Assembly: GCA_009192285.1 (NCBI GenBank)
Contig: CM018607.1
Location: forward strand, 372,001 to 436,000
Length of the DNA: 64,000 bases
Origin: Morchella semilibera
Taxonomy: Eukaryota > Ascomycota > Pezizomycetes > Pezizales > Morchellaceae
Direction: 5' to 3'
Position numbers and translations under genes: made by a program. The notes beneath the pieces were generated by a model. That model was given only the letters and a program-made list of their open reading frames with translations. It ran no database searches and was not told the origin of the DNA. Shown here piece by piece: positions 1,067 through 18,546 of this stretch; positions within the stretch are counted from its first letter, which is position 1; each line of letters opens with the position of its first letter.

Positions 1067-2694
1067 ATGACCGACGTCGATAAGCCAGTTGATTTCCTCG
1101 CCCACGCTACGGCGTTCCTCTATGACTGTGCTGCTCATGCACGCGAGTCCGGCGTTAAAGCGCCCGCCGAGCCTACCGACAGATTCGTCTTCCATACCGC
1201 CGAAGGGGTTCAGCTACAGCTTTACCTCCGTCAGGGCATGTTGTTGCCCGATACGAAGGAGGCCTACGAGACTAAATTCCCGCGCAAGGATGTGGAAGAT
1301 TTTCTCAACGGGCTAGACAAAACAACAAACCTATACCAGGTAAGTGGTCCATCTAGAGCTCCACAGTCTGCCCTGACTGACTGTTCGGCTCTGTACGCTC
1401 AAGAGTGCGGAAGACAATGCCCTCAGTATCTTCAAGCACACGACGGATTTCTACAACAACACTTTCAATGACATGTTTACCCTAAGTATACATCCTTGTA
1501 AACTCGACTTAATACCAATTTATCTGCTAATTCCGCATCCATAACAGCGGGCGAGATCGCAAACTTTGCCGCGGAGGCCCAGGACAAAACCAATTTCTTG
1601 CACGAACAGTTTGCGATTATAACGGCAGAGGGCTCAACAATCACCGATCCCAAGGTCAAAGATGCAGTCGGTACGTCTCAGGCCCTCGTACAAATCCTAG
1701 GCGGAAAGGCAAAAACCGCAGGTGAAAAATGTGAAGTGATGCACAAAGCCCTCTTGAAGGTATTCTTCTCGCGCTCTAGTACCATAGGTGAGGGGTGTCT
1801 AACAGCCAGTGCAGTTCAAAAACGATACTGAAATCGATCGTAACAATGTGATGGAATGCCACAGAAAATTCACGGCTCTACTGCCGGATATCAACAAGCA
1901 ACTCGACAAGCTGAAAGCAGACATCAAAAAACTCCAAGACGAAACTCAAGGGCTCGAGGATGAGTACCACCACGAAGTCGTTATCGCGGCGACCACCCCT
2001 AGTTATGGTATGTCATGCAAATTAAAGGTTCATGCGTACTGGTGACAAACGGTTACTAACCACGTTTAGCCTGGTGTGGCCCATTTGGGTTAATCGCTGC
2101 CATCACGGTGGCAAGTATTTACGGCCCGAAGGCAGTGGCTGCAAAGAATGCATAAGACGACAACCTAGCCGACACCATCAGTGCACAAGGGAAAGAAGGG
2201 AACCTGATCAAGATGAAAAGTGGGTTATCTTCTGTATAGCTAGATATTCGCAGGTATCTCGGTTGGAATGACTTTACTGACAGGAGCGACAAATAGATGG
2301 CATTAACATGCAGAATGATGCTATGAATGGCGTCAGAGAAACTATCGATGCTGCCATAACGGCTACCGGAAAGATGCGAGGTATGCACTCTTGACTAGCT
2401 CTAGCTTACAAAGCTGATTATTGATATTGGTCTCAGGTGCTTTCAGTTTAATGCAAGCGGACTTCGAAGGCATTAACACCAAGCTCACTGATTTTGAGTC
2501 CAATATTGGAAAGACCGAACTGTTCTACCGCAAGATCGGTGGACGTGACCTCAAACAGGCTGAGACCAAGTGGGCAGAGGTACATAAGATTCCATTATAT
2601 TCGGGGCGTAGATGGCAGGTGCTAACCTTCGCAGGTCATGGAGCAAACCAAGATCTTCCAAACTTCGGGCCAGGCCGACATCAAAACCATGTAG
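1067..2694 (+). pseudogene. alpha-pore-forming-toxin-like gene (XaxA/HBL-like family), apparently decayed
   Basis: A multi-exon gene with about six coding blocks separated by short GT-AG introns. It encodes a mainly alpha-helical protein. The N-terminal half is charged and helical, a long amphipathic coiled coil lies in the middle, and a short Gly/Ala-rich hydrophobic segment with a Tyr-Gly pair follows it. The C-terminal part is again helical. This order (helical bundle, coiled coil, hydrophobic tongue, helical tail) resembles the XaxA/HBL class of alpha-helical pore-formers, which has fungal relatives. The assignment rests on architecture and is tentative. The gene looks broken, with about one or two interruptions, and most of it is well preserved, so the decay is probably recent. 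No partner subunit gene is visible nearby. Confidence 0.45.
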
Positions 2695-3248
2695 GATACA
2701 GCGGGGGGACATGTATGATTATTGGATTGTTTCAAGCATATCCGCTTCTGATTGGAGTATAACTAGGATCACCTTCGTTTGAATGTAACAATGAACAATT
2801 TAAAGCTCTTCTCGTAAAGGCGGCATAAGCCCCTAGCTTTAGTTACTTAGTGGTGATTACTGACACGAGAGGCCGCGCCTGAGCTGGACAAAATGAGCAA
2901 GGTGTGGTTGGGATAAAGCACATCGCTTGTACTCGTGAGGCGTGAAAATATTAGGCATTCATGAAGTTACATCTCAGCAGGTCCCTGCATTCTAGGCCCA
3001 GCAATTAATGTGGCATGTTTCAATGAATTAATCCATCTTGCCCAAAGAATATCTTGGCATAGTCCCCTGTCCTATTTCGGTTGTTCCTTGATATATTACT
3101 ACCCTGGGCGGTGCTACTGCAGGGCAGTTGCCCGTTCCGTCATGTAAGGTCACTCGGACCATCATCGGTTATCACTCGGGATTATACATTGAGTATCACT
3201 GGGTTTTTGCCTGTTTTTTTTTTTTATATGCATACAACCCTAGGCGGT

Positions 3249-3482
3249 TATGGAGCGGTAAATGTGTCAAAAGTAATTTCACCAACGGTGGTATAAGCAC
3301 TGAATTTCAGTCCTTGTTCCAGTATAGATGCTAACTTTCAGTCTTTATTCTACATTATCATTAATACCAACTCCTCCCGGTGGTAAAATACCTACCACCG
3401 GTGGTGAAATTCCCACTGGTGGACAATGTTGATATATACTGGCATTATATAGGGCGAAAAGGTCTGTGCTATTATCCATTTC
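3249..3482. mobile_element. hAT-like MITE, family ACCGGTGGT, copy 1 (3' truncated)
   Basis: The first 230 bases closely match the complete copy at 25607-25950. It starts with the same TATGGAGCGGTAAATGTG end and carries the same internal ACCACCGGTGGT palindromes and the GGCATTATATAG segment. The right terminal repeat is missing, so this copy is truncated. Confidence 0.7.
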
Positions 3483-3553
3483 TTGAAAGTCTCGGGATCA
3501 GGGCCTGGTCTTGGCAAAGTCTCCTAGACTTCGTTGTCACGCAGGAAGTAAAG

Positions 3554-3566
3554 TAACCCTAACCCT
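3554..3566. repeat. interstitial telomere-like motif
   Basis: TAACCCTAACCCT, two units of the fungal telomere repeat in the C-rich orientation, away from any visible chromosome end. Confidence 0.6.
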
Positions 3567-4015
3567 GAGCTGGTAGTTTACAACAACAAATTGGGTGGTG
3601 GACAAAATTCGAGGCCTGTATGACAGGTTGTCTTGTCTTGTTGCGCTCATCTTGTCTTGTTTTGCCACAAGTCTCGAGACAAGGTCTCGAGACAGAAGAT
3701 CATCAGCTGCTACTATACATTCTTGCAGTGAACCTAGCCTTAATTGGTTTCGCAATTGGCTGTAAATTCAGGGTTTATTAGCGCGAGTTGGTCAGAACTG
3801 CCTAATTCTGGTACACAGTTGCGGGGGTGCTGGTGCGATTCATTATGATTATGTGAGAGTCTTGGCGGTTTTAGTGCTTTGTAGTAATTTGTGCTGAAAT
3901 GGAGCGGGAAATGAGGATGCACTCCCGTGTACTTAGGTTAATCGAGTGATACTGCGTGCGCCAATTATGATCTCTTTTGATCCCACTAAATAAGAAAGCC
4001 GAGATCTGTCATCAA

Positions 4016-4097
4016 TCTTTGGTAGTATAGTGGTTAGTATACTCGCTTGTCAACTGACAAAACGCGAGTGACCGGGGTTCAATTCCCCGCCAGAGAG
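4016..4097 (+). tRNA. tRNA-Asp (GTC) with 10-base intron
   Basis: An 82-base gene. The acceptor stem TCTTTGG pairs with CCAGAGA with one G-T wobble, followed by G as discriminator base. The anticodon stem CTCGC/GCGAG encloses a 17-base loop with anticodon GTC at 4049-4051. Removing ACTGACAAAA (4053-4062), right after position 37 where eukaryotic tRNA introns sit, leaves a normal 7-base loop. The T arm contains GGTTCAATTCC. A second gene for the same tRNA lies at 57461-57541 on the other strand. Confidence 0.92.
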
Positions 4098-5632
4098 TTG
4101 TCATCAATAAGTCCATAGACTAAAGCTTTAGCCTAGCACCACAAATCTTTTACTGTTTAGATTTTTGGTTTCCAATCTAGTGGGCGCTACGGTTGGTGCC
4201 AATTCCGCTGAGGGTTTGTGTGAGGGGGTGTTGTTAGGTCGTACCTGGCCTTGCCGTCCATGACTATTCTTATGTGGTATCTTTGGGTTTTGATACTTCC
4301 TTCCTAGGGACGCTCTCCAAGTGGGAATGGCAGCCAGCAACTACTTATTCTCTATATTGGGGGATGGAGTAATTCACTATGTTCATGGCGGGGGTCTTCT
4401 ACTTAGTCTTTTGTGTCTGGCTTACGCAAAGGTCTTTTGGATGAAGCAAGTGACAGCCTGGTGCTGCAATCCGGAACTGGTTAACCCCTAGCTCCGCTGT
4501 ACTTGGGGTGAAATTACAGTACCGGAAATAGGCAGAAATTGACTACCGTATTTTGCTAGTGGTTCTGTAAGAATGCAATGCGGTATTGACGCAGTATCGA
4601 TAACCCTGGGTATTCTACTTACGATGCTGGTTTAGACCGGTGTCCTTGACTGAATACCGTTACATTTTTACCCCCATTTCCGAGACTGTAAGTATGTACC
4701 CCGGGGGTCCTCAAAGTGATGCAACGGCGACAAAAACCACAAGTTTCGTAGCTACTGGCCACCATGTCCAAAAGTTAGGAAGTAATTTATATATGTCGAA
4801 TTGCATCAGGCGGGGCTATATAATAAATAGTAAATGGAAATACAAATGGAAAAAATTGACTGGGTCTAGCTTTGGTGGTGGTCGCGACACTAGAATATCG
4901 AGCCTGTTGCATCACTTTAAGGACCCCCGGGGTACATGTATACGTATTGTCCCAACCACCTCTATTGCGCTGGCAACCATTGAACCCCACCGAGCAGGCC
5001 GATCACTCACTTAACGTATCTTGTACCCAAAAACAGTTATATCACACATGGCTATCGTGCTGAGGTCGGTTGCTGTCGTGCGCGAGGGCCTAGGTGGGAA
5101 TGCTTAGTTTTCTCGCAATTAAGTGTGGAGAATTCTTTTTCTTCTTTCGCTGTTCAATTGCACATACGCAGTCTTGAACCCGGCCAAGTATCCCATCTCC
5201 CAGAATTAGACGCCTCTCCACCCACCCACCGCCATCCAACAAGGAAGGCGGATGAACATTTCAGTACTAGCCCCCGCCAGCTGCAGCTAGGTCCGCTCAC
5301 TCACCACTCACAAGTAATTAATACCCCGCCCCTGATGATGGGGGGGATCATAACTGTCACGAGCCGGTTTCCGGTGTCGCTGTCCGCGGCGTAGAGAGGA
5401 ACTATGCGGTTCTGGTGCTGCAGGCGGGATACTAGGCCCCAAGGTGGGGAGTCTGAGGGTGGCTTGGTGCTGGTTCCAGTGGTGGGGGGGATGTTTATGG
5501 ATGCTCGGAGGGTTGGTGGGATAAAGAATGTTGAATAGAAAATAGTAACCATCGTCAACCATACAAAGGAGGGCGGGGAAACAAGGCCCCACACCACAGC
5601 CCCAGCTCCGCCAGCACTACCACGGGAATTAC

Positions 5633-6004
5633 TGTATCACTTGATACATTACCCACACAAGAATGACGCGTAATGCATTAAGTGATGCATTTAGCTGTAA
5701 AAAGTGAATCTAGTGATCTAGATACATTTACTGATGATTTTGCTGATGATTTATCTCTTTGAGCCGGATATTAAGTAGATAAAGTATAAGTTATTCATGT
5801 TACCATGGCTTAGGTGGGAGGATACTTACAGGAATAAATATGACACAAGTTCAAATCCCCTGCATATCTTTTTATTGTTAAATTATCTACAAGTCTTGGC
5901 AAAATGAGACTGTGATGCATTCTTGATGCATTATGAGATGCATTTATAGATTCATTATTTATATGATGCATATACTGATGCATTTCCGATACATTTGCGA
6001 TACA
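5633..6004. mobile_element. putative non-autonomous element with subterminal GATGCATT repeats
   Basis: The segment opens with TGTATCACTTGATACATT and closes with GATACATTTGCGATACA, so both ends read TGTATC inward. About ten copies of TGATGCATT or TGATACATT variants cluster in its outer thirds. Subterminal repeats of this kind are typical of short DNA transposons. No target duplication is clear and the family is unknown. Confidence 0.45.
5806..5873 (+). other. tRNA-like Pol III A/B boxes (SINE-like)
   Basis: TGGCTTAGGTGG (5806-5817) resembles an A box and AGTTCAAATCC (5848-5858) a B box. A T5 run, a Pol III terminator, follows at 5869-5873. No cloverleaf can be folded, so this would be tRNA-derived and not a working tRNA. 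It sits inside the GATGCATT element. Confidence 0.3.
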
Positions 6005-6285
6005 CGTTTCGCCGTGGTAGAGCAGTCACAGTATATACCTAGGTCTAGAAACGAAGGCGAGCGATCCATGACCCAGCCAATTCGTGTGGGGAATGGATCA
6101 AATCATCCGTCCGTTTTGATCCCCTACCGCCGCATTTAGTTGACGACCTTCTTAATAAATGACCCACCACCGCCAGTACCAAACGGCAAAAAGATACTTG
6201 TCTACGCTACCCCCACCCAAAAAAACGCGCCAAGACCGAGTGACACCCCATGACACACCCCAAACCCCCGACCGCCAGCGGAAGG

Positions 6286-6459
6286 CGGAATCCGTGGCTC
6301 GTATGTACGGCCAGCCCGGAGGTCCGTGCCAGCTGCAGACGGACGCGGAGTTCCGCGGGCGTCATTGCGGCCCGCGGAGTTCCGTTGGCTTCGGGGTTCG
6401 ACTGGCTGGTCGCTGGTGATGGTGCAGGCGGCGCGGAGTTCCGTGCTTACGGAGGTCCG
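6286..6459. promoter_or_regulatory. cluster of six CGG-N3/4-CCG palindromes
   Basis: CGGAATCCG at 6286-6294, CGGAGGTCCG at 6317-6326 and 6450-6459, and CGGAGTTCCG at 6346-6355, 6375-6384 and 6434-6443. Inverted CGG half-sites with short spacing are a known site type of Zn2Cys6 (Gal4-class) regulators. The cluster is in a GC-rich island 0.9 kb beyond the 3' end of the transporter gene and next to no recognised start codon. Confidence 0.45.
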
Positions 6460-7383
6460 GGGTTGTGCAGCGTGTGGGGAGTGGGAGTGGGGGGGGGGGG
6501 GGCTGATGTATGGGCTGGTGGGATCCGGACTTCCTGTTCGATCGGCGGGGTCACTGGGACTGTGTTTGTCGGAGATTAATTGTTGGTGTTGTTGGCAGAA
6601 GGGACTGTTATTACTGGAAGAGTGAGTCCTGGGTTCTGTAGGTTAGCGGCCCGGGGATACGGCGCGGGTGCGTGGCGGAGTGGTGATATTTGTGGGTTAA
6701 TTTATACTTGGGTATGCTATTGAACAACACCTCCAGGGCGTTGGAAAGTAATGCACATTTTGACCAGATCTAGACAACGCCCAAATACTTTACCACAACT
6801 TCTCTACCATACCCAAGTACTAAGCATGAAGAGTATCTGCACACTCATATTTACCTTGGTGTGGGGGTTGGTTCCCGTGTGGCTATGAAACCACCGGATG
6901 TGCATCGCTTTCTGACACCCTGGGTATGTACCTACCCACGCCCGCCCGTGTGGGGGAGTTCCGGAGAACATGTGTTGTAGCTTATATATACTCCCAACCA
7001 TAATAGGCCTACGTAGAGAACACTCCAGCGCAACATCAACCCATGCAGCAGCGCAGCTGTCAACCGCAAAATGGCACCAAGACCAAAGCCGGGGATCGAG
7101 TGTAGGTTGTGCGGATACATACATATGCATAGAGCGCATTAAGAGTGAGATATTTCATTCTAGCTATATAGTGTAGTAGTCTATCAATCAATCTATCCCG
7201 TAGAGTATTTTCGAGCAGGAATTATAGCAATGGCCACAAGTAGGGCGGGTCGAGTAAGTATGGAGATTTAACAAAGAAAAGAAAGAAGCAAAGAAGCACA
7301 GTATAGCATCACCACCCCATCCAGAAGTTAAAGAAAACATAGAACCCACCCCCGCCCCCACCACCCCTCACCACCCAACACGC

Positions 7384-9220
7384 CTACCTCAACTTCACAG
7401 GCCACCTCTCCCGAATGACCTTCCCATAGCGATACACAAACGGCAAGAACGGGACCAGCAGCAGCCCCAGAAACCCCAGCAGCGTATTCCCCCACCCGAG
7501 TCCCAGCCTCCCATACATCTCCGGCCCGGCCATTGGGAGGAACGCGCCAAAGAGGCTCCTGGTGGCCGTGAGGCTCGCGACAACACTGGCCGCATACTCC
7601 GGGAACGCATCGATGAGGTACGTCTGCACGGGGATGAAGATGCCCATCATGCCGAAGCCAAAGGGGACCATCGCGATGATGGCCACGACCCAGTGCACGT
7701 GGCGCTCCGTCACCCACCCGTACCAGAAGAGGGACAGCGGCAGGAAAAGCCCAAAGAACATGCAGCTCGGCAGGCGCATCTCGGGCTCCGCCACGCCGCC
7801 GTTGCGCCCAGCGAGCCTGATGACCGTTGCGTCCGAGATCTTGGCCACGGCCGCGACCCCCAGGAACAGCCCGACCCCGATGCCGAGGTAGGCGAGGCCC
7901 GTCATGTCGGCTTCCCACCCGTAGGTGCCCTGGAAGACGCTGGTGATGGTGGTGAACAGCAGGTACAGCAGCCCGTACGTGATGCTCATGTAGAGCGAGA
8001 GCAGCGCCACGATGGGCGAGCGCACGAGCAGCTTCAGCGGGCGCAGCAGCCCGTGCGAGAGGACCACGAGCGGCGACAGCGGCGGCCCGACATGTTCGCG
8101 GTCGTACCAGCTGACCAGGGCGTCGTTGCCCGTCTGCCGGCGCATGGCGGCGGTCCTGCGCGCGAGAAGCACGCGCGGGTTGCTCTCGCGGTTGAAGGCC
8201 CAGATGGCGGCGGTGACGAGGCCGGATAGGATCAGGAGGACCCAGTAGACCCAGCGCCAGCCGACGCGCTGGGCGATGAAGCCGCCGCAGATGGGGCCGA
8301 TGACGGGGCCGAAGAGAGGGCCCATGGCGTAGATTGCGGTTGCCTTTCCGCGCTGCTCGGCGGGGAAGAGGTCGCTGATTACGCCGCCGCCGATGGTGAG
8401 GCAGCCGGATCCGCCGACGCCGCTGAAGAAGCGGAAGAGGATTAGGCTGTTGAGGTTTGGGGCGAGGGCGCAGCCAATCTGCCAGAGGACGAAGAAGAGG
8501 TTGGCGTAGTTTAGGATGGGGGCGCGGCCGTAGATCTCGCTGAGGGGGGAGAGGACAAGGGGCCCGATCTAGGGGTGTGTCAATGATTGTATGGACGGGA
8601 AATGTGGGCGGGGGGGTACTTACGGCGTAGCCGAGGACAAAGACGGAGACGACGAAGGAGGAGAGGATGGTGGATGTATTGTGAAACTCCTTGTTCATGA
8701 AGCCGACTCCGGGGGCAAACATGGAGGACGCCAGGGGGCTGTATCATATCCAACCTGTGTCAGTGGTGCAGTTTACAAACAGGGCGTACTACCAATACAT
8801 GACATACCTGACCAGCGTGATGCTGCTCACGAGCGCAAGGATGGTCCACTTGAGCTTTGGCGAGAAGTTCTTTGGGTTCTCTGGGTCGTGCTGGCCGTCC
8901 CAAGCCACGATGCCCGCGGCGAGGTCCGTGACGGGGTGTTGGGCCTCCTTGAGCTGGTGTGCATCCTCGGCCTCGGGGGGTTTATCATGGACTGTTTCGG
9001 TCCGCACCGTTGTCTGTGCTTCAATTAGCTTCATCTTGTATCGCTACTAGAGGGAGAGAGGACTAACCAGCTCGTGGACACTCCCGTTGACGGGTGTGGT
9101 GGCGGTGGTGTCGGGACGGCTGCTGCCAAAGTCGCTCTTGCGGTCCTCGATGGTCTCTTTTTCGCCGTGGAGTGTTTCGGCGGTGGAGGGGGGCTGGGTG
9201 CCCTTCTCGTTGAGGGACAT
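7384..9220 (-). CDS. MFS multidrug transporter, DHA1 (12-TM) family
   Basis: Four exons are placed by frame and GT-AG ends: 9220-9068, 9013-8808, 8738-8624 and 8568-7384, giving 552 residues. The introns are 54, 69 and 55 bases. A polar cytosolic N-terminus of about 110 residues precedes twelve hydrophobic segments. The first helices read FAPGVGF..., followed by the loop motif PLSEIYGRAP (motif A type). The GPLFGPVIGPICGG segment with RVGWRWVYWV is the drug-proton antiporter signature (motif C region) of fungal DHA1 exporters. Predicted role: proton-coupled efflux of small toxic compounds or metabolites at the plasma membrane; the substrate is unknown. It is divergent from the Zn2Cys6 gene at 9938, which probably regulates it. 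The length is normal for the family and no defects are seen. Confidence 0.92.
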
Positions 9221-9937: not shown

Positions 9938-12191
9938 ATGCCCCCCTCCGTCTCCTCACCGCAGCCCCCCCCGGCTTCCGAGTACGCCCGTTTCCGCGCA
10001 TGCGACGAGTGCCGCCGCCGAAAGGTTTCTCCTACCCCTTTCAATCTAGTGCCTTCCTTCTTCTACGTTCTAACCCGGTACCCCCGTAGATCAAGTGCGA
10101 CGGCCGAATCTCGGGATGCCGCCACTGCGTGAACGCCAGTGTCCCCTGCGTCTACAACACCCCGACAAGGGGCCCACGCAAGCGGGCGTCGTCGTCGTCC
10201 TCAAAGCCGGCAAAACATGTGTACGTCGGTGATGCCCACCCCCCGCTCCCCCCCCGCACTCCCCCCCTCACTAACTGCCGACCAGCCGCGACGCCGAAAC
10301 AGCAATCAACATCGAAGAGCGCCTCGACCGGATCGAACGCGCCGTCAAAGAGCACCTCGCCACGCGCCTCTCCGCCCTCCCCCCGCAACCACCCCCACCG
10401 GCCCCCGCCACCACCACCACCGCCCCGCAGCCCCCGCCACAAACCCGCTCAAGCAGCGCGCCCTCTACCACTGGAAGGTCTCTGACGACGACGACGCCGA
10501 CGACGAGCACCAGGCCGACGCGGGCCTGATCGAGGACTTTGCCGGAAAGCTAAAGTTCATTGGCGAGAGCAGCGTCTTCTCGCTGTTCCTGCCGCGCGGG
10601 ATGCAGTGGGTGTGTGAGAAGCTGGGCGAGCCGCAGCTGTGCGAGCCCATTGGCCGCAGCGCCATCAATTCCTGGCCGCTCAACCCCCCCGTGCAGCCGC
10701 AGCAGCAGGCGGAGGGGGAGGAGGAGGGGGAGGAGGCGGCGCTGCCAGAGGGGGAGAGGCTCTGGGCGCTTGTGAACGGTGGGTAAGCTTAATGTCCAGA
10801 GATGCACACTACAATTTCTATTCTATTATCCTGTTATGGACAGACTTGCTTATGATTATTTACACACAGACTACTTCACGCGCATCAACCCGGTGATCCC
10901 CATCTTCTCGCGCGCATCCTTCACCGCCTCCCTCCGCACCTACCTCACGACGCGGCACGCCCCGCCCTCGTTCCTGATCTCACTACACACGATCCTCGCG
11001 CTCTCCCTCATCTCCAACCCCCTCGACGAGCCCACCCCCGCCCGCCGCCTCGCAACCGAACGCGCCGCCGCAACCCTCTTCCACAAAGCCCACGCCCACG
11101 TCCCCACAGTCCTCTTCTGCAACCGCGACCTCACGGGCGTGCAGGCGCTCCTGGTGACGGTGCTCTACCTCTGGGAGACGCAGGGCGCCGAAGGCGTCTT
11201 CACGCTTCTCGGCGTCGCCGTCAGCATCGGCACCGAGATCGGCTTCCACCGCTGCGGCGCAATGCTAGGCCTCAGCCCGGCCGAGGCGCACATGCGCCGC
11301 AACGTCTTCTGGGCCGCATACATCCTCGACAAGGACCTTTCGCTGCGCATCGGGCGGCCCAGCAGCATTGCGGACGAGGACGCGATTGTCCCGCTGGGCG
11401 AGGAGGCGGAGGCGGGGGAGGAGGCGGCCGCGGACGTCTTCTGGCACCGGGTGGCGCTGGCGCGCATGCAGAGTCGCGTGGCGAGCTTGCTGTGTAGTCA
11501 GGTTGGCGTGCGGGCGGGGGCGGGCGCGGTGCTGGGCACTATCGCGATGCTGAACGGCGAGCTGGAGGAGTGGCGGAGGGGGTGCCCGCTCATGGAGGGT
11601 GGCGTGGAGGGCGTGGCGGCGGACGACCCGGATAGGTTGCAGCATATGCTGCGGCTGAGGCTGGTATACTACTCGTGTCTGAGCGCCATCAACCGGTTTG
11701 TCCCCCCCCCCCCTTCTCCCCCACCACAAAACTAACAACCTGAACACAGCCCGCTCTGCCCGGCCTTCGACCTCCACGACACCACCCCGCCGGACACCGA
11801 CACCGCCTATAGCTACACGCTCACGCTGCACGCCGCGCGCTCCTCGGTCGCGCTGATACCAACCTACACCGCGCACGGGCTGCGCCTGCACCGCTCCACG
11901 GCCGTGAACCTGGTCGCCGCGGCCGTGACGCTGTTCACAAACATGCTCGAGGACCCCGGCGCGCCCACCGTCGCCGCGGACGTGGCGCGCATACGCGATG
12001 TGGCCGGGTTCCTGCGCGCCGCGGTCGAGAAGGGGTCGGCCGCGGTGAGGGAGATGTGTTTTTTGGTGTGGGCGCTGGCGGGCATGGCGGAGGGGGTGGG
12101 CCGCTTGGGTGGGGCGGCGGCGGCGGTGGGCGCGGGAGGGCGCGGGCGGGGGAGCGCGAGGGGCGTGGAGGGCCTTTGTAGAGGGTTGTAG
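9938..12191 (+). CDS. Zn2Cys6 fungal transcription factor
   Basis: Five exons: 9938-10024, 10090-10220, 10286-10778, 10870-11695 and 11750-12191, about 659 residues. The zinc cluster spans the first intron and has six cysteines spaced C-x2-C-x6-C-x6-C-x2-C-x6-C (CDEC...C...CRHC...C). A basic linker and a short coiled-coil segment with EERLDRIERAV follow, as in Gal4-type dimers. The fungal_trans (middle homology) region starts at DYFTRINPVIPIF and includes VFWAAYILDKDLSLRIGRP. One oddity: reading from the coiled coil into the middle region needs a change of frame in the C/A-rich tract near 10370-10450. No GT-AG intron fits there, so it is an indel, an assembly error or an unusual splice. The nuclear regulator probably controls itself and the divergent transporter. 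Confidence 0.85.
10370..10450 (+). other. low-complexity Pro-coding tract with unexplained frame change
   Basis: CCC/CCA/ACC-rich tract in exon 3 of the Zn2Cys6 gene. Upstream coding and downstream coding are in different frames and the tract has no GT dinucleotide for a canonical intron. Homopolymer C runs make a one-base error plausible. Confidence 0.5.
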
Positions 12192-12558
12192 TCTGTATGT
12201 AGCAATTGATCGTCCGTTCGTTCGTTCAGTAGGTGTGCGCGGTGTACGTGATTAGCTGTGAGTGGTAGGAGCATCGTGTGTACCCAACGCCGCCAATAGT
12301 CTAATCCGCCTGCAGTCGACTACAGTCCGCCTGTGCCAAGCCAGTCTGGTCCATACTTTAATGGACTGCATGGACTGCAGTCGACTGCAGTTTTTCAGCC
12401 AAGCCAGCCCGTCCCAACAGGGGACGGACTGTTGGACTATAGACTACATAACATCCCAAAATAGTGATGTTATGATATATATAAGAACTAAGAATGTATT
12501 CCCGCCTCTTTTGTAATTCTAATCATACTACAATACATAACCATCTCCAAGTACAAAA

Positions 12559-15129
12559 ATGTCCTTCAATGAAAACAACATCCAAACTGGCGAAGATTCA
12601 CTTTATGAGCCATCAATAGCTGATACAGCTCAATCGGTGAATGTTAGTGGCCTACCCCCTAATAATCCACGTATTCCGGCAGCTTTTCTTCCAAGAGTCA
12701 GAGAACGAACGAGTTGGGTTTGGAAGCATGGATATCTTTTCCAAGGACCTGATAGAAACGGTGTAATGAAAGATCGCTGGAAATGCAATCTATGTAAGAC
12801 AAACACGTAATCCAGTTCCGACTGCTTACAGATTACTAAATCTCACGCAGGCCCTAATCCTGAAACGGCTGTACACTATTCAGATACGACTACTAAAAAT
12901 GCAATCAATCATTTGGTTAAAGTCCATCAATTCCACCAAAACGGAGAAAAACAGATGGTTACTAGTGGCGTAGCCCTTGTAGATAGTGGTTCTCTAGCTA
13001 CAACAAACAACAACGCGTCGCCAAATACAGCAACACGTATTTTATTCAATAGCGACGTGTTTAAACAACTTTATATACGTTGGATCGTTACCAATAATAT
13101 TCCTTTTCAGCAAGCAACATCCACTAGTTTGAGATTTTTGTTGATGTATTTATGTGCCGTGGTAAGTTATATATATAAATAGACTTTGAAAACTAGCTTC
13201 TGACTATAGGGGTAGCAAGCATCATATACAGAACTGGGTAAAGCAATGCCTAAATCTTCCGCCACCGTTAGTAGTTGGGTTCACGAATCATTTACAAAGA
13301 GTAAAAACTGTCTCCGTCGGGTTTTAAATAATGCCATCTCTTCCATACATATCAGTTTTGATATGTGGACATCACCAAATAATTTGGCTTTGATGGCAAT
13401 AGTTGGGTATTGGTTAGATGAAGAGGGGAATTTACGCCATGGCCTGCTAGGGTTACGGTGACTTTTGGGTGCCCATACAGGAGAAAATCAAGGCAGTATT
13501 GTCTGGACAATTATTCAAGATTTCCAGATCCAAAATTCAATCGGATACTTTACACTTGACAACGCCTCGAATAATATTACCACACTTCGATTCATTCAAA
13601 ACCATATCAATACACCATCCGCCGGTATTCAATTCAATAATACATTTGGGCAGATCAATTTACGATATGTTCGTTGTTACGGTCATATTTTAAATTTGAT
13701 TGTCAAAGTATTCCTCTATGGCAAGAAATCAAGCCAACTACTGTCCTACGAAGATAAGAATACAGTTGAACGAGAAAATCTGGAAATTGATAGATGGAGG
13801 AAGTTGGGGCCTTTGGGCAAGCTTCGAAATATAACAGTTTGGATACATGGTAGTCCACAGAGGAGAGACGCATTTTGTCAATCGGTAGCCACTATATTGG
13901 GAAATTCAACCCAAGCCCGAACTTTGATTTTAGGAAATGTCACATGTTGGACTGGTGATTATGATGGTTTGGAAAGAGCTTTAAAGTTAAGGCATGCAAT
14001 TGATTTTCATATCCACCAAATAATACGAGAGGCTTCAATAGCTGGAAAATCAACACTCGAAAAAGATCAATTATCTGCAGGCGATTGCATCAGCAAGACT
14101 TCATTTGTCTCCTGATGTCTCCTGAGCCTCAGGAGACTCAAAAGATCTCCAGGAATCTCAGGAGACTCTCAGGAGACTTGGGAGACTGTTGGGAGACTGC
14201 AGTCATAAGTTGAGTTTGCTGATGTGGTTAGTATTACAACAAGTTTTCAAATTTTTGAAACCATTTCGGGACGAAACACTACTTCTGGAGGGCCATCGTA
14301 CTCAGGGGTCTTTATATGAGATCTACCCTTCATTCGAGTTGTTGAGACGACATATTTCCTATACTCGAGAAAATTTAGCATCAGACGTTCTGGCAACTCC
14401 ATTACAACTTGCGGCCCAAAAGCTAGAAAAATATTACTCAATTGATGAATTGAGTCCAATTATATGTGCTTCAATTGTATTGCATCCCGATATGGACAAT
14501 TTTTTTGACGATTCAGAGTCTGGTTGGGGCGACCGTCCGGAATGGGGATTTAAAGCAAAAGATTTAGTAAAATCTTTATGGGAATCTTCATATAAGCAGA
14601 TAGCATTGCATGCCGTACCGTCAGCAACTCCTAATTCTCCCAAACGTACGCTAGACCCAAATTCGTACTCCTTCAAAAAAGTCAGGACCTTTAAAAAACC
14701 AAGATTGAATCCTGATTCAATTGAGGATGAGCTTTCGCGCTATCTACATTGGATATCCCAAAACCGACACGAAGTAGGCGAACCTATACCATGGTGGATT
14801 AAAGCTCGACCAACGTATCCTCGGTTATCTATTTTAGCACTGGATACCTTTTCAACACCTGCAATGTCAGCTGAATGTGAACGTGTTTTTAGCAGGTTCG
14901 AACACATTAACTCTCTCTATCAAATTTCAATTACTAATTACTTTATAGTGCGAAACAAAATATCACCGACAGGCGGAACCGGTTAGATGAGCAAATCATT
15001 GAGGCAGGGGAGTGTCAAAAGTCATGGGCGCGTGCAGGTTTAATCGGGTTTGATGAGGCTAGAGATATGTCTGATTACCTTCAAAAATGTGAGAGAGATA
15101 GTTTAACGTCAGTTATTTTAAACCAATAA
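12559..15129 (+). pseudogene. hAT transposase with BED zinc finger, nearly intact
   Basis: Exons are about 12559-12793, 12851-13161, 13216-14894 and 14949-15129. The BED finger reads W-K-C-N-L-C...H-L-V-K-V-H and is completed across intron 1. The RNase H-like catalytic part includes FDMWTSPNNLALMAIVGYW and GYFTLDNASNN. The C-terminal dimerisation region reads LSILALDTFSTPAMSAECER, and intron 3 restores its RRNRLDEQIIEA tail. The frame has an in-frame TGA at 13459-13461 and an insertion of about 100 bases of GGAGAC repeats near 14104-14203 that also shifts the frame. The copy is therefore probably inactive unless it is supplied in trans. Confidence 0.88.
14104..14203. repeat. palindromic GGAGAC/GTCTCC insertion in the transposase
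   Basis: A tract of CTCAGGAGACT and TCTCCTGAG units in both orientations, including GTCTCCTGAG-c-CTCAGGAGAC, a 10-bp perfect inverted repeat with a one-base loop. It interrupts otherwise continuous transposase coding and looks like a small inserted or expanded repeat. Confidence 0.6.
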
Positions 15130-15203
15130 TTATGATTGTTTTTCTTTTCAAAAGTTATTGAATAGTTTATTTTCTGTTGATAGCAACCGTTTTTTTATTT
15201 ACA

Positions 15204-16512
15204 TTAATTGAATACTTTCATAGCATCCAATTCTTGCTTAACGTTCTCATGAAAAGTTGCCACCAAACTAAACCGAATACCTTCCCATTTAGTTGTGCAA
15301 TGCTCCAAACGACTTCCCCTAATAAACCCAATACCACCAGGTTGGTAATTAAATTTCCTGCCCAATTTTCTGATACAAAGTTCGCCTCCACGAAAGTCGC
15401 CCATTGGCAACATTGAAGCCCAACCATTATTAAGATCACCACCATCATAATGAGGTTCAGTAAATACGTTGATCAAACATGCTCTCAAAGAGAAGCAATC
15501 TTTGTCATCTGTGATCCACTGTTTTTTTTTGCCGTCATGAAATCTTTTAACCATCTCTTCAGTCATGTCTCTGACTTCTTTGTCGACTGCTCCTAATAGG
15601 ATTCTCTAAGCCCTTGTAATATTGCCGAAAGACTTGAAAAGATCTGAAAGAACTGGTTGTATTCTTGAAGGAATATTGGCAACATCCTTTGTAATGCAAG
15701 AACCTTTTGCCGTATGTCCAAGTTCCATCCAACAACCCCAATGATAAACGCCAGCTCTTGACCAAGGTGCCCAGCACAAATGAGGATTAGACAAAAGCCA
15801 ATCTTTCCAGTTAAGATGTCTTTTATCTTTAGGCATATCTGGAGGGTGGATTTGAGAGTATTCGTCAATGTTCCAAGTTGTCGAATCCAAAACCCATTTT
15901 CCAATCTGTGGCCCGTAGACTATCTCCAAACCTTTGTTAAAGTAAACAAAGAGGCGGCGGAATTTGGAATCCAAAGCTACATAAAATGCCCCCGAAGGCA
16001 GATTAATAGTAGGATATTTGTCTACAATCTCCTGAATTTCTTCTGAAGATTTTCCGTGTAATGTTTCCGACTTTTTCTTCGAAGGTGAAGCATCTAAATC
16101 GATTTGGAAAAATACCTCAATCATATTGCCTAATAATATTAGTTAAAGATATTTCAAAATTAACATTAACAAATAGGCGAATATTACCTTTTTGGCCAAA
16201 TGATTGTGTAAAGGTTTTATCGCCTCTATTTTTAGCAAGTTGGCAGTCCACCAAAGCAGTACTAGAAAGAGTCATGTATTTGTCGAGTGCCTTCCCAATA
16301 TCTCTATCCGACATTTTTTTGACAGGACCTGGTGCAGGAAAATCTCTCCTAGCATGCGTAGGCTGGAACTGATCCGTAATAATATCTGCTTGTGTTACTG
16401 GCTTTAGGAAACCGGAGGTTGAGACTCTCTGCCCTTCGTTTACATAAGGTGGTGCTTTCAGGACACCACCTTTTGTTGTCATTTTTGCCGTAGGAAATTG
16501 TAAAGTTGTCAT
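15204..16512 (-). pseudogene. TET/JBP-like 2OG-Fe(II) dioxygenase with one in-frame stop
   Basis: Two exons, 16512-16188 and 16129-15204, with a 58-base GT-AG intron; 416 codons before the final stop. The C-terminal third has the hallmarks of the fungal TET/JBP group: PHYDGGD (the HxD iron ligands), then MGDFRGGELCIRKLG, YQPGGIGFIRGS, LEH (distal His) and WEGIRFSLVATFHEN (Arg for 2-oxoglutarate). These enzymes oxidise 5-methylcytosine or thymine in DNA. The middle region has many Trp/Tyr (GVYHWGCWMELGH). One in-frame TAG lies at 15606-15608, where CAG-to-TAG is the simplest origin. Everything downstream remains open, so decay is recent or readthrough occurs. Convergent with the hAT transposase and inside the same putative element ends. 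Confidence 0.8.
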
Positions 16513-16814
16513 TTTGCTGATAGGTGGTACTAGCGGAAAGCTCTGGAGGTTTTGCTGTAGAGCAATTAGTTGACGGACTATAATTGAAGACCTATTAGTC
16601 TAAATATTATAAGTCCAGAATCAAGACCTACCAGTCCTGTATTCCCAACTAATGGATCCGTTGTGTTGATGCGAGTTGTGTTGATGTTATGATTTGGAGG
16701 AAGGGAAGAGAAGGTTACGCGACCTATACAAGCAAAAGACAGATCGCATCGGGTAACCATGGCCACTATATGTAGTTACCTACTACAACGCGAACTACCC
16801 ACCAAGCACACCAA

Positions 16815-16912
16815 GCGAACTACCCAGTACCAAACACCACAAAGCGAACTACCCAGTGCCAAACACCACAAAGCGAACTACCCAGTGCCAAACACCACAA
16901 AGCGAACTACCG
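16815..16912 (+). repeat. 29-bp minisatellite
   Basis: Units start with GCGAACTACCCAGT at 16815, 16844, 16873 and 16902, an exact 29-base period with about 3.4 copies. It lies in the right non-coding flank of the hAT element, upstream of the dioxygenase start. Confidence 0.9.
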
Positions 16913-18361
16913 GACCACAGTCTGACTATGGTCAACCTGTCTTGCTCTACTTGACTGCTGCAGCACCCGCAAATCACCAGGTCTGGACTAGGACTGGTCT
17001 GCTGTCGGCATTGTGTGTACCCAAGACAGCCACTGTGTGTGCACCGGACATAGCGCCAACGCTGTGCTAGCGGTAATCAATCCACACACAAAGACCACCG
17101 CTGCCGGGGGCCTCGTACGGATGTTGACGGCCACGCGCGCCTAGAGTAGGTAGCAGACGGGTGTTTCGACGCCATTGCTATGATATGTTGGTGGTGTTGG
17201 CGGCGTGTCTTGCTTGGTAAGAAGGTACTTACCTGCTGCGCGGGTGCGGCGGATCATGAGCTCTCACTCGCCCGCTCGCGGTGTGCGTGGGGAGATTAAA
17301 CACACACCGGGGGGATGTTACGTCCTCCGGGCGCGGGAGAGTTGGTGTGTGTATGCAGGTTGAGTCGTGTGGATGGGCGCCGGAGGGGGAATGAGATGCT
17401 TCAGCGCGGCCGCGGGCACTGCGGGTAACTGTGGAGCGGGTTATGCAGTTATATACTTAACCTGTTTCGTTGTTGTTTTCCAGATACCACATATATCCAA
17501 GTCCCCATCTCCACATGCGTAATCGTCATGTGTGTTTTGTCCGGCGCAGGGTGCCTTTGTGGCTCCCGGTTTTAGTATGTAGCTGTCAATTTGGGGGTTC
17601 TCCCGGGTCCTCCGACTGGCCCCTCTTTTCGTTGCTGAACTCTGCTGTGCCTTGCTGTTGTGTTCTGTCGTGTGCATAGAGGCCGGATGGGATGAATCAA
17701 CGTCTCTGTTTTTGACGCCACGAAAATTTGTAGACACTAAATGTGGCAAAGAAAGGATATGAGGTTTAACTCTGGATACACTGGTCTTTGCATTCCCTTC
17801 AACGTATTGGTGCTGTTTAATTAATGTAGTGCCTTATCAATATATCGAGCAGGCTTCATGCCACCGACCCTACACCCGACGCCATAAATATATAGTAGGC
17901 AGCTGCAATAGACACGCTCACACCCCGCGAGCGCTGAAGCACCACAGTCCTCAGCTCCTGCCGTGAACGAGTTCGAATTGTTGATTATTAGTTCATATCC
18001 TCATATCTTTACTAAGAACCACCCTAGACCGGAACGGTAGATTGGCTCCAAACGGCCACGGCTAGCTACTCGGAGACCATTCTGGCTCCCAAAATAGAGT
18101 GGGAGACGGGGTGGTTGCCGGTCCGAGGTGGCTATGCAATGCCGCAATTGACTAGCTACTTGTCTATAAGGCGCCGTATGGGCCTCAGCTCCCGGGTAGT
18201 GCCAAGGATTCAGGGTCAGAGTAGGGGGAGTAGTTCTTGAGAACCGTGGGCCCGAAGACGTTGTGATAATAAGCGTAAACGGGAAGCAACTCGAACCCCA
18301 CCCCCGGTCTCGCTACCGGCGATTTTGGGAGATTTTTTTTTATTCCAGTGCAAGCATGCTA

Positions 18362-18546
18362 CTTTTAAACGCCGGATTGGATATTCCTATAAGCCTTAGT
18401 CAAAAGTTAGTCTAATAAAGACCTTATATGTTCCTCAGATCACTCTTAAAAAATGCTTGAATAAGGTCTTTATTAGACTAACTTTTCACTAAGCCTCTTC
18501 TAAGGCTGAAATCAGGCCCGCAGGGGTATCCGACCGGGCGTTAAAG
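18362..18546. mobile_element. MITE with TIR CTTTAACGCC, copy 1
   Basis: Bounded by CTTTTAAACGCCGG and CCGGGCGTTAAAG and flanked by TA on both sides (18360-18361 and 18547-18548), as for Tc1/mariner-type insertion. An inner inverted repeat around GTTAGTCTAATAAAGACC forms a long hairpin. The same parts recur in the copy at 19956-20175. Confidence 0.75.

Follow-up and report, generated by a model that had tools for sequence, protein, structure and literature searches.

A degraded hAT transposon with a TET/JBP-like dioxygenase gene in the morel Morchella semilibera

We analyzed a stretch of 64,000 nucleotides of the Morchella semilibera genome (assembly GCA_009192285.1, contig CM018607.1, positions 372,001 to 436,000; hereafter the window, whose coordinates are used unless another contig is named) and describe in it a hAT transposon that holds, in addition to its transposase gene, a gene for a TET/JBP-like dioxygenase. 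The element spans positions 12285-17013 on the plus strand (4,729 bp) and is flanked by a perfect 8-bp target duplication, TGTGTACC, at 12277-12284 and 17014-17021. The matching ends, the perfect duplication, and a sister family in the same genome support the reading, made earlier from the sequence of the window, that the two genes lying between one pair of hAT termini form one mobile unit. This copy is dead: its transposase gene contains a TGA and an inserted 137-bp miniature inverted-repeat transposable element (MITE), and its dioxygenase gene contains a TAG. We propose that it is the remnant of a two-gene morel hAT element whose dioxygenase would counter the silencing of the element, in a lineage where this module was captured or exchanged at least twice. 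Taken as a whole, this explanation seems to us likely.

The boundaries were obtained from the termini and the duplication. An earlier note on this DNA had placed the element at 12276..17024, between copies of a 12-bp direct repeat. We corrected this span and rejected a 12-bp target duplication, because the true length is 8 bp and a G and a CAA happen to border both copies, which produces the longer direct match. On its plus strand, the window contains four copies of the 8-bp sequence. The left terminal repeat, CAACGCCGCCAATAGTCTAATCC (12285-12307, plus strand), and the right one (16991-17013, minus strand), which reads CAATGCCGACAGCAGACCAGTCC inward, match each other as inverted repeats at 16 of 23 positions, in agreement with the degenerate inverted ends described before. 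The short terminal inverted repeats and the 8-bp duplication, both present, are consistent with membership in the hAT superfamily. GGACTG motifs had been reported at both ends. They occur at 12363, 12372, 12426, 13949, and 16991 (and as CAGTCC at 12323, 16244, and 16632): there is a cluster on the left and a copy at 16991, and the motif is denser toward the left end, with internal occurrences as well.

To look for relatives, we searched the genome, comprising 56,756,124 bases in 23 contigs (labelled C1, C2, and so on; the window is on C5). The DNA search, in which 40 of 752 candidates were scored, revealed further hAT copies at C14:24635-29256, C7:461406-466371, C21:913053-918128, and C22:914715-919758. 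The flanks of the C21 and C22 copies are 97.7% identical, so these two were counted as one insertion, giving three sister insertions in all. Among themselves, pieces of the sister copies are 81-98% identical; compared with the transposase DNA of the window, they reach 66-71%. Beyond the transposase, the right arm of the window element shows no DNA-level alignment with them. All four sister copies have a TET/JBP-like gene downstream of the transposase on the same strand, and perfect 8-bp duplications flank the C7 and C21/C22 insertions. In the C7 copy this gene forms a 363-codon open frame that matches the Tet_JBP profile (PF12851) with 53.2 bits, above the cut-off; in C14 it is interrupted by a MITE, and in C21 and C22 it carries stops. 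The iron triad and the arginine of the sister enzyme are found in HMD, EHY, and GDR. Two of the five homologues of the C7 enzyme are from Morchella.

The left end of the window element is 74-75% identical to those of four other genome copies over the first 167 bases, with ten shorter matches elsewhere. We also scanned all 64 kb of the window, on both strands, with 23-bp queries taken from sister termini. The best match to the left terminus of C7 is the right end of the window element (17/23, position 17013, minus strand), and the second best is its left end (16/23, position 12285, plus strand; a tie with 11681). Several observations weigh against a single unit. The scan with the right terminus of C14 did not single out the window ends: six places scored 15/23, one of them 12285, and position 17013 scored 14/23, outside the eight places listed. 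In the genome search, the right end and right arm of the window element returned only themselves, the window subfamily is represented by a single, broken copy, and the C14 sister copy lacks a clean duplication. One could imagine two independent neighbouring insertions, a hAT and a TET element beside or inside it, with a duplication shared by chance, as the single copy and the unique right arm would allow. We regard this as very improbable, because the right terminus is the best match in 64 kb to the C7 left terminus and falls exactly at the second perfect copy of the duplication, and because the ends of the sister copies enclose the same set of genes. Since the window copy is single and broken and no second copy of its right end turned up in the genome, the dioxygenase could, in principle, have been inserted later into a resident hAT in this instance. 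The copy search proposed earlier as a check on a single element thus gave, for the sister family, both genes at three insertions.

The transposase gene (12559-15129, plus strand) has four predicted exons, 12559-12793, 12851-13161, 13216-14895 (split by the MITE), and 14949-15129; these exon borders were predicted from GT-AG borders and homology. Its product matches the Dimer_Tnp_hAT domain (PF05699) with E=7e-12, above the cut-off, as does the C14 transposase (E=4.7e-9), and it shares with the C14 exon-3 product 71% amino acid identity over residues 1-300 and 78% over residues 293-519. The motifs FDxW, TLDNAsNN, and SAxxERvFS, which we take to be the DDE catalytic motifs, can be read in its translation. 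The BED finger seen before is readable by eye as C-x2-C...H-x5-H, and the zf-BED match is weak, with E=0.13, under the cut-off. The in-frame TGA (13459-13461, plus strand) corresponds to an Arg codon in the C14 relative, and the MITE occupies positions 14088-14224, with termini CATCAGCAA...TTTGCTGATG. A TAA at 12808 was rejected as a nonsense mutation, as it falls within a predicted intron. The TGA here and the TAG of the dioxygenase gene fit C-to-T changes, but two events are no proof, and repeat-induced point mutation was rejected as the cause of the lesions, the composition indices of the element and its flanks being unremarkable. In the genome search, the MITE family accounts for 58 rows of matches, whole or partial, at 83-99% identity; its members broke both the window transposase and the C14 dioxygenase. 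The termini resemble the CATCA...TGATG ends given for PlavakaB in the accessible text of Kojima (2025, PMC12730594).

The dioxygenase gene (15204-16512, minus strand) has two predicted exons, 16512-16188 and 16129-15204. It lies tail to tail with the transposase gene, the two stop codons being 74 bp apart (15130-15203), exactly as first noted. The in-frame TAG is at 15606-15608 (minus strand), where the Morchella snyderi protein P0003 has a Gln; two parts of the window enzyme are 85% and 83% identical to this protein at the amino acid level. The HxD, distal His, and Arg motifs read earlier are present as HYD, EHC, and GIR. The PF12851 search suggested at that time gave a match to the C-terminal part with E=2.7e-7 and a score of 30.4 bits, below the curated cut-off of 34.9. 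The dioxygenases gave a match to the TET-type fold, the best being CcTet of Coprinopsis cinerea (PDB 7vpn, 7w5p, 8jkk; 16% identity), with CMD1 also covered. This identification has points against it. Full-length relatives of the window type score under the same cut-off (P0002 with 18.9 bits, P0003 with 24.0), and the HxD pair is missing in 4 of the 10 aligned window-type proteins (C11, C5:1367k, P0004, and P0008). The window-type profile alone matches CcTet with E=0.12, ranked behind a chance match to Eglin C, and the structure model of the window-type enzyme is poor (predicted local distance difference test score, pLDDT, of 44).

Window-type genes also occur where no hAT was detected, at C16:1040888-1041793, C11:879141-880022, and C5:1367833-1368729; two of the three are open and two of the three lack the HxD pair. 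They either travel as cargo in elements not recognised as such or have been domesticated. Among the homologues of the C16 enzyme, 8/9 are from Morchella and 1/9 from Choiromyces.

Is the dioxygenase then of any use to the element? It might be a mere passenger: one gene of a TET/JBP family that is dispersed in the host genome, trapped between the hAT ends. This would fit the window-type genes found where the search with the C14 transposase lists no hAT (the C16 and C11:879k genes open, C5:1367k with one TAG, and C5:1877k, C5:1209k, and C1:5530k in pieces with stops), as well as the broken state of the window gene itself. We nevertheless find it unlikely, since the sister gene accompanied the element in three insertions, two different TET lineages in sister hAT elements are less expected from chance capture, and the C7-C14 comparison points to purifying selection like that on the transposase. 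Between these two copies, the dioxygenase shows 38 synonymous and 13 nonsynonymous differences, with a ratio of nonsynonymous to synonymous proportions (pN/pS) of 0.10 and of the corresponding rates (dN/dS) of 0.09; exon 3 of the transposase shows 60 and 17, with ratios of 0.08 and 0.07, respectively. In this one copy pair, the cargo gene is constrained about as strongly as the transposase, which indicates that in the sister family both genes are kept by purifying selection. Other pairs suggest weaker constraint and count against this: pN/pS is 0.23 for the dioxygenase of C7 vs C21, and dN/dS is 0.41 for C7 vs C22, 0.57 for the transposase of C14 vs C21, and 0.74 for C14 vs C22. We read the higher ratios with C21 and C22 as decay of those copies, partly inflated by pairing across frameshifts. 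Synonymous sites are saturated between the window and C14, and between the window and other window-type genes, so that the ratios concern the sister subfamily. Selection on the sister dioxygenase shows that the gene has paid, not how; it is compatible with the idea of protective oxidation.

The enzymes of the window and of the sister family belong to different lineages, with 24-28% amino acid identity (36% across one 63-residue piece). We built a tree of 21 TET/JBP proteins; its deeper joins are weak, and the program issued a warning about long branches. In this tree, the window enzyme groups with P0003 and P0006 of M. snyderi (support 100/100), and this trio is nested in a clade of 11 that includes C16, C11:879k, and C5:1367k (100/100). 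The sister-family enzymes belong to a clade of 5 members that also includes P0013 of M. snyderi, P0014 of M. sextelata, and C6:1734k (98/100). Because the lineages differ, the orientations are opposite, and the right arms do not align, we judge from the sequences that this hAT lineage probably captured or exchanged its TET/JBP module on at least two occasions. A single capture followed by old divergence and an inversion may also have produced this arrangement, but such a history would have to account for the closer kinship of the window enzyme with genes that lie outside any detected hAT than with its counterpart in the sister hAT. Within the reading of repeated capture, we lean slightly toward the view that the whole right half, dioxygenase and terminus together, is an anti-silencing module that can be exchanged and was taken up repeatedly for the advantage it brings, the two modules stemming from lineages that separated long ago.

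Searching the genome with the C14 transposase (40 of 40 candidates scored) gave 33 matches, with at least 53% identity over long stretches at eight places: C14, C21, C22, C7, the window, C20, C2:4929k, and C2:4997k. A TET/JBP gene is present at 5/8 of these. The more distant C20 copy (60% amino acid identity) has no dioxygenase in the 2 kb downstream, where the transposase tail is followed by repeats and a MITE and then by a motif that by eye resembles a right end. The earlier note had named a hAT copy without the dioxygenase as evidence against a joint element, and C20 partly provides one. Since it seemingly lacks the gene, only a part of the hAT lineage carries it. At C2:4929k and C2:4997k there is no TET match among the matches listed in the genome searches, on which this statement rests.

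As for the mechanism, the transposase would, from its family membership, recognise the short termini and cut and paste the element. The dioxygenase would oxidise 5-methylcytosine (5mC) on DNA, including copies of its own element, as Kojima proposes for such enzymes. Oxidation could counter the host cytosine methylation that silences, and may mutate, repeats, and expression of the transposase or transposition would thereby stay possible. We infer this evasion of silencing from sequence. The host genome has C5-methyltransferase matches on C12/C13, probably a single locus present on duplicated contigs, and two more on C19; morels having such genes, they are suitable for testing whether transposon TETs defeat the silencing of their own DNA. 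Alternatively, rather than erasing methylation, the enzyme might generate some other base, whether derived from thymine or adenine or a modified form of cytosine, by which the DNA of the element is marked or protected during transposition. CcTet, its best structural match, has been solved with both 5mC and 6mA (N6-methyladenine) DNA, and CMD1, an enzyme that attaches a glyceryl group to 5mC (Kojima 2025, PMC12730594, accessible text), falls within the fold match as well. Given the C5-methyltransferase matches in the morel genome and the lack of a second modifying enzyme among the element's open frames, we think this improbable.

Directly to the left of the element, a gene for a fungal transcription factor (PF04082) has open frames that end at 12191. 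A 29-bp tandem repeat of 4.5 copies (16785-16911) lies in the right arm between the dioxygenase and the right end, and at about 18391-18497 an inverted-repeat sequence, AAAAGTTAGTCTAATAAAGACCTTAT and its reverse complement (by eye), resembles another small MITE. Some contigs have the same content at near-equal coordinates: C9/C10 are identical over 10 kb and C21/C22 are 97.7-99% identical over 9 kb, while C12/C13 are paired by one matching gene. These are either redundant or haplotype contigs, in an assembly whose source is described as a monospore strain.

Other loci of the genome bear TET genes. L028 (C11:1606001-1616000, positions 1361-5340) and L033 (C21:438001-448000, positions 5093-8088) have a pogo/Fot1-like transposase tail to tail with a TET/JBP gene. 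They are two diverged copies, 67-68% identical in collinear pieces, whose ends we looked for and did not find; DDE_1 (PF03184) was tested on the L028 frame, and the label pogo-like was given by eye. They may represent a further TET-bearing superfamily; 'Tc1' does not occur in the main text of Kojima (2025, PMC12730594). L029 (C17:248001-258000) and L032 (C6:392001-402000) are Helitron-like, with helicase-like frames recognised by eye, and carry a TET/JBP gene with the motif HKD (by eye), in contrast to the HxE of the PE type given for Pezizomycete Helitrons in the accessible text of the same paper. At L030 (C9:30001-40000), perhaps IS3EU-like, a TET/JBP open frame of 455 codons adjoins an integrase-core gene (PF24764). 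L013 was rejected as a second TET-bearing hAT: it has no hAT transposase match, and the 25 listed of its 37 inverted pairs include no clear terminal repeats. In morels, hAT, Helitron, integrase-type, and pogo-like elements may thus share a common stock of TET/JBP modules.

The pairing of hAT with TET/JBP, which the earlier note took to be distinct, is not new. The accessible text of Kojima (2025, PMC12730594), on which the published side of the following comparisons relies, describes TET-bearing hAT7 elements with 7-bp duplications in six Puccinia species. Like the morel element, they hold a hAT transposase and a TET/JBP dioxygenase within one pair of ends. They differ in the duplication (7 bp vs 8 bp in the window, C7, and C21/C22) and in having a PU-type TET upstream of the transposase on the same strand (in the three families with the order given), whereas the morel hAT, in an ascomycete host, has the TET downstream, tail to tail in the window and on the same strand in the sister family. 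We set the two apart by the published description of hAT7. For Ascomycota, the same text gives TET only in Helitron and IS3EU elements, of the HxE (PE) type. The TET-bearing Helitron1 and IS3EU of Pezizomycetes are from the same fungal class and also have TET/JBP in a DNA transposon, but the transposase types differ, and so do the enzymes, HxE as opposed to HYD (window) and HMD (sister) in the hAT-borne ones of morels. The KDZ (Kyakuja, Dileera, Zisupton) elements of basidiomycetes follow the same principle of a transposon-borne TET/JBP with another transposase, the morel element having the PF05699 hAT dimerisation domain; Kojima relates CcTet to Kyakuja. Relative to that text, and judged against open-licence literature, an 8-bp hAT in morels, its HxD enzymes, and two TET modules in sister hATs are new. 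Our results extend transposon-borne TET/JBP from the hAT7 of rusts to 8-bp hAT elements of an ascomycete and point to two separate TET captures in sister elements.

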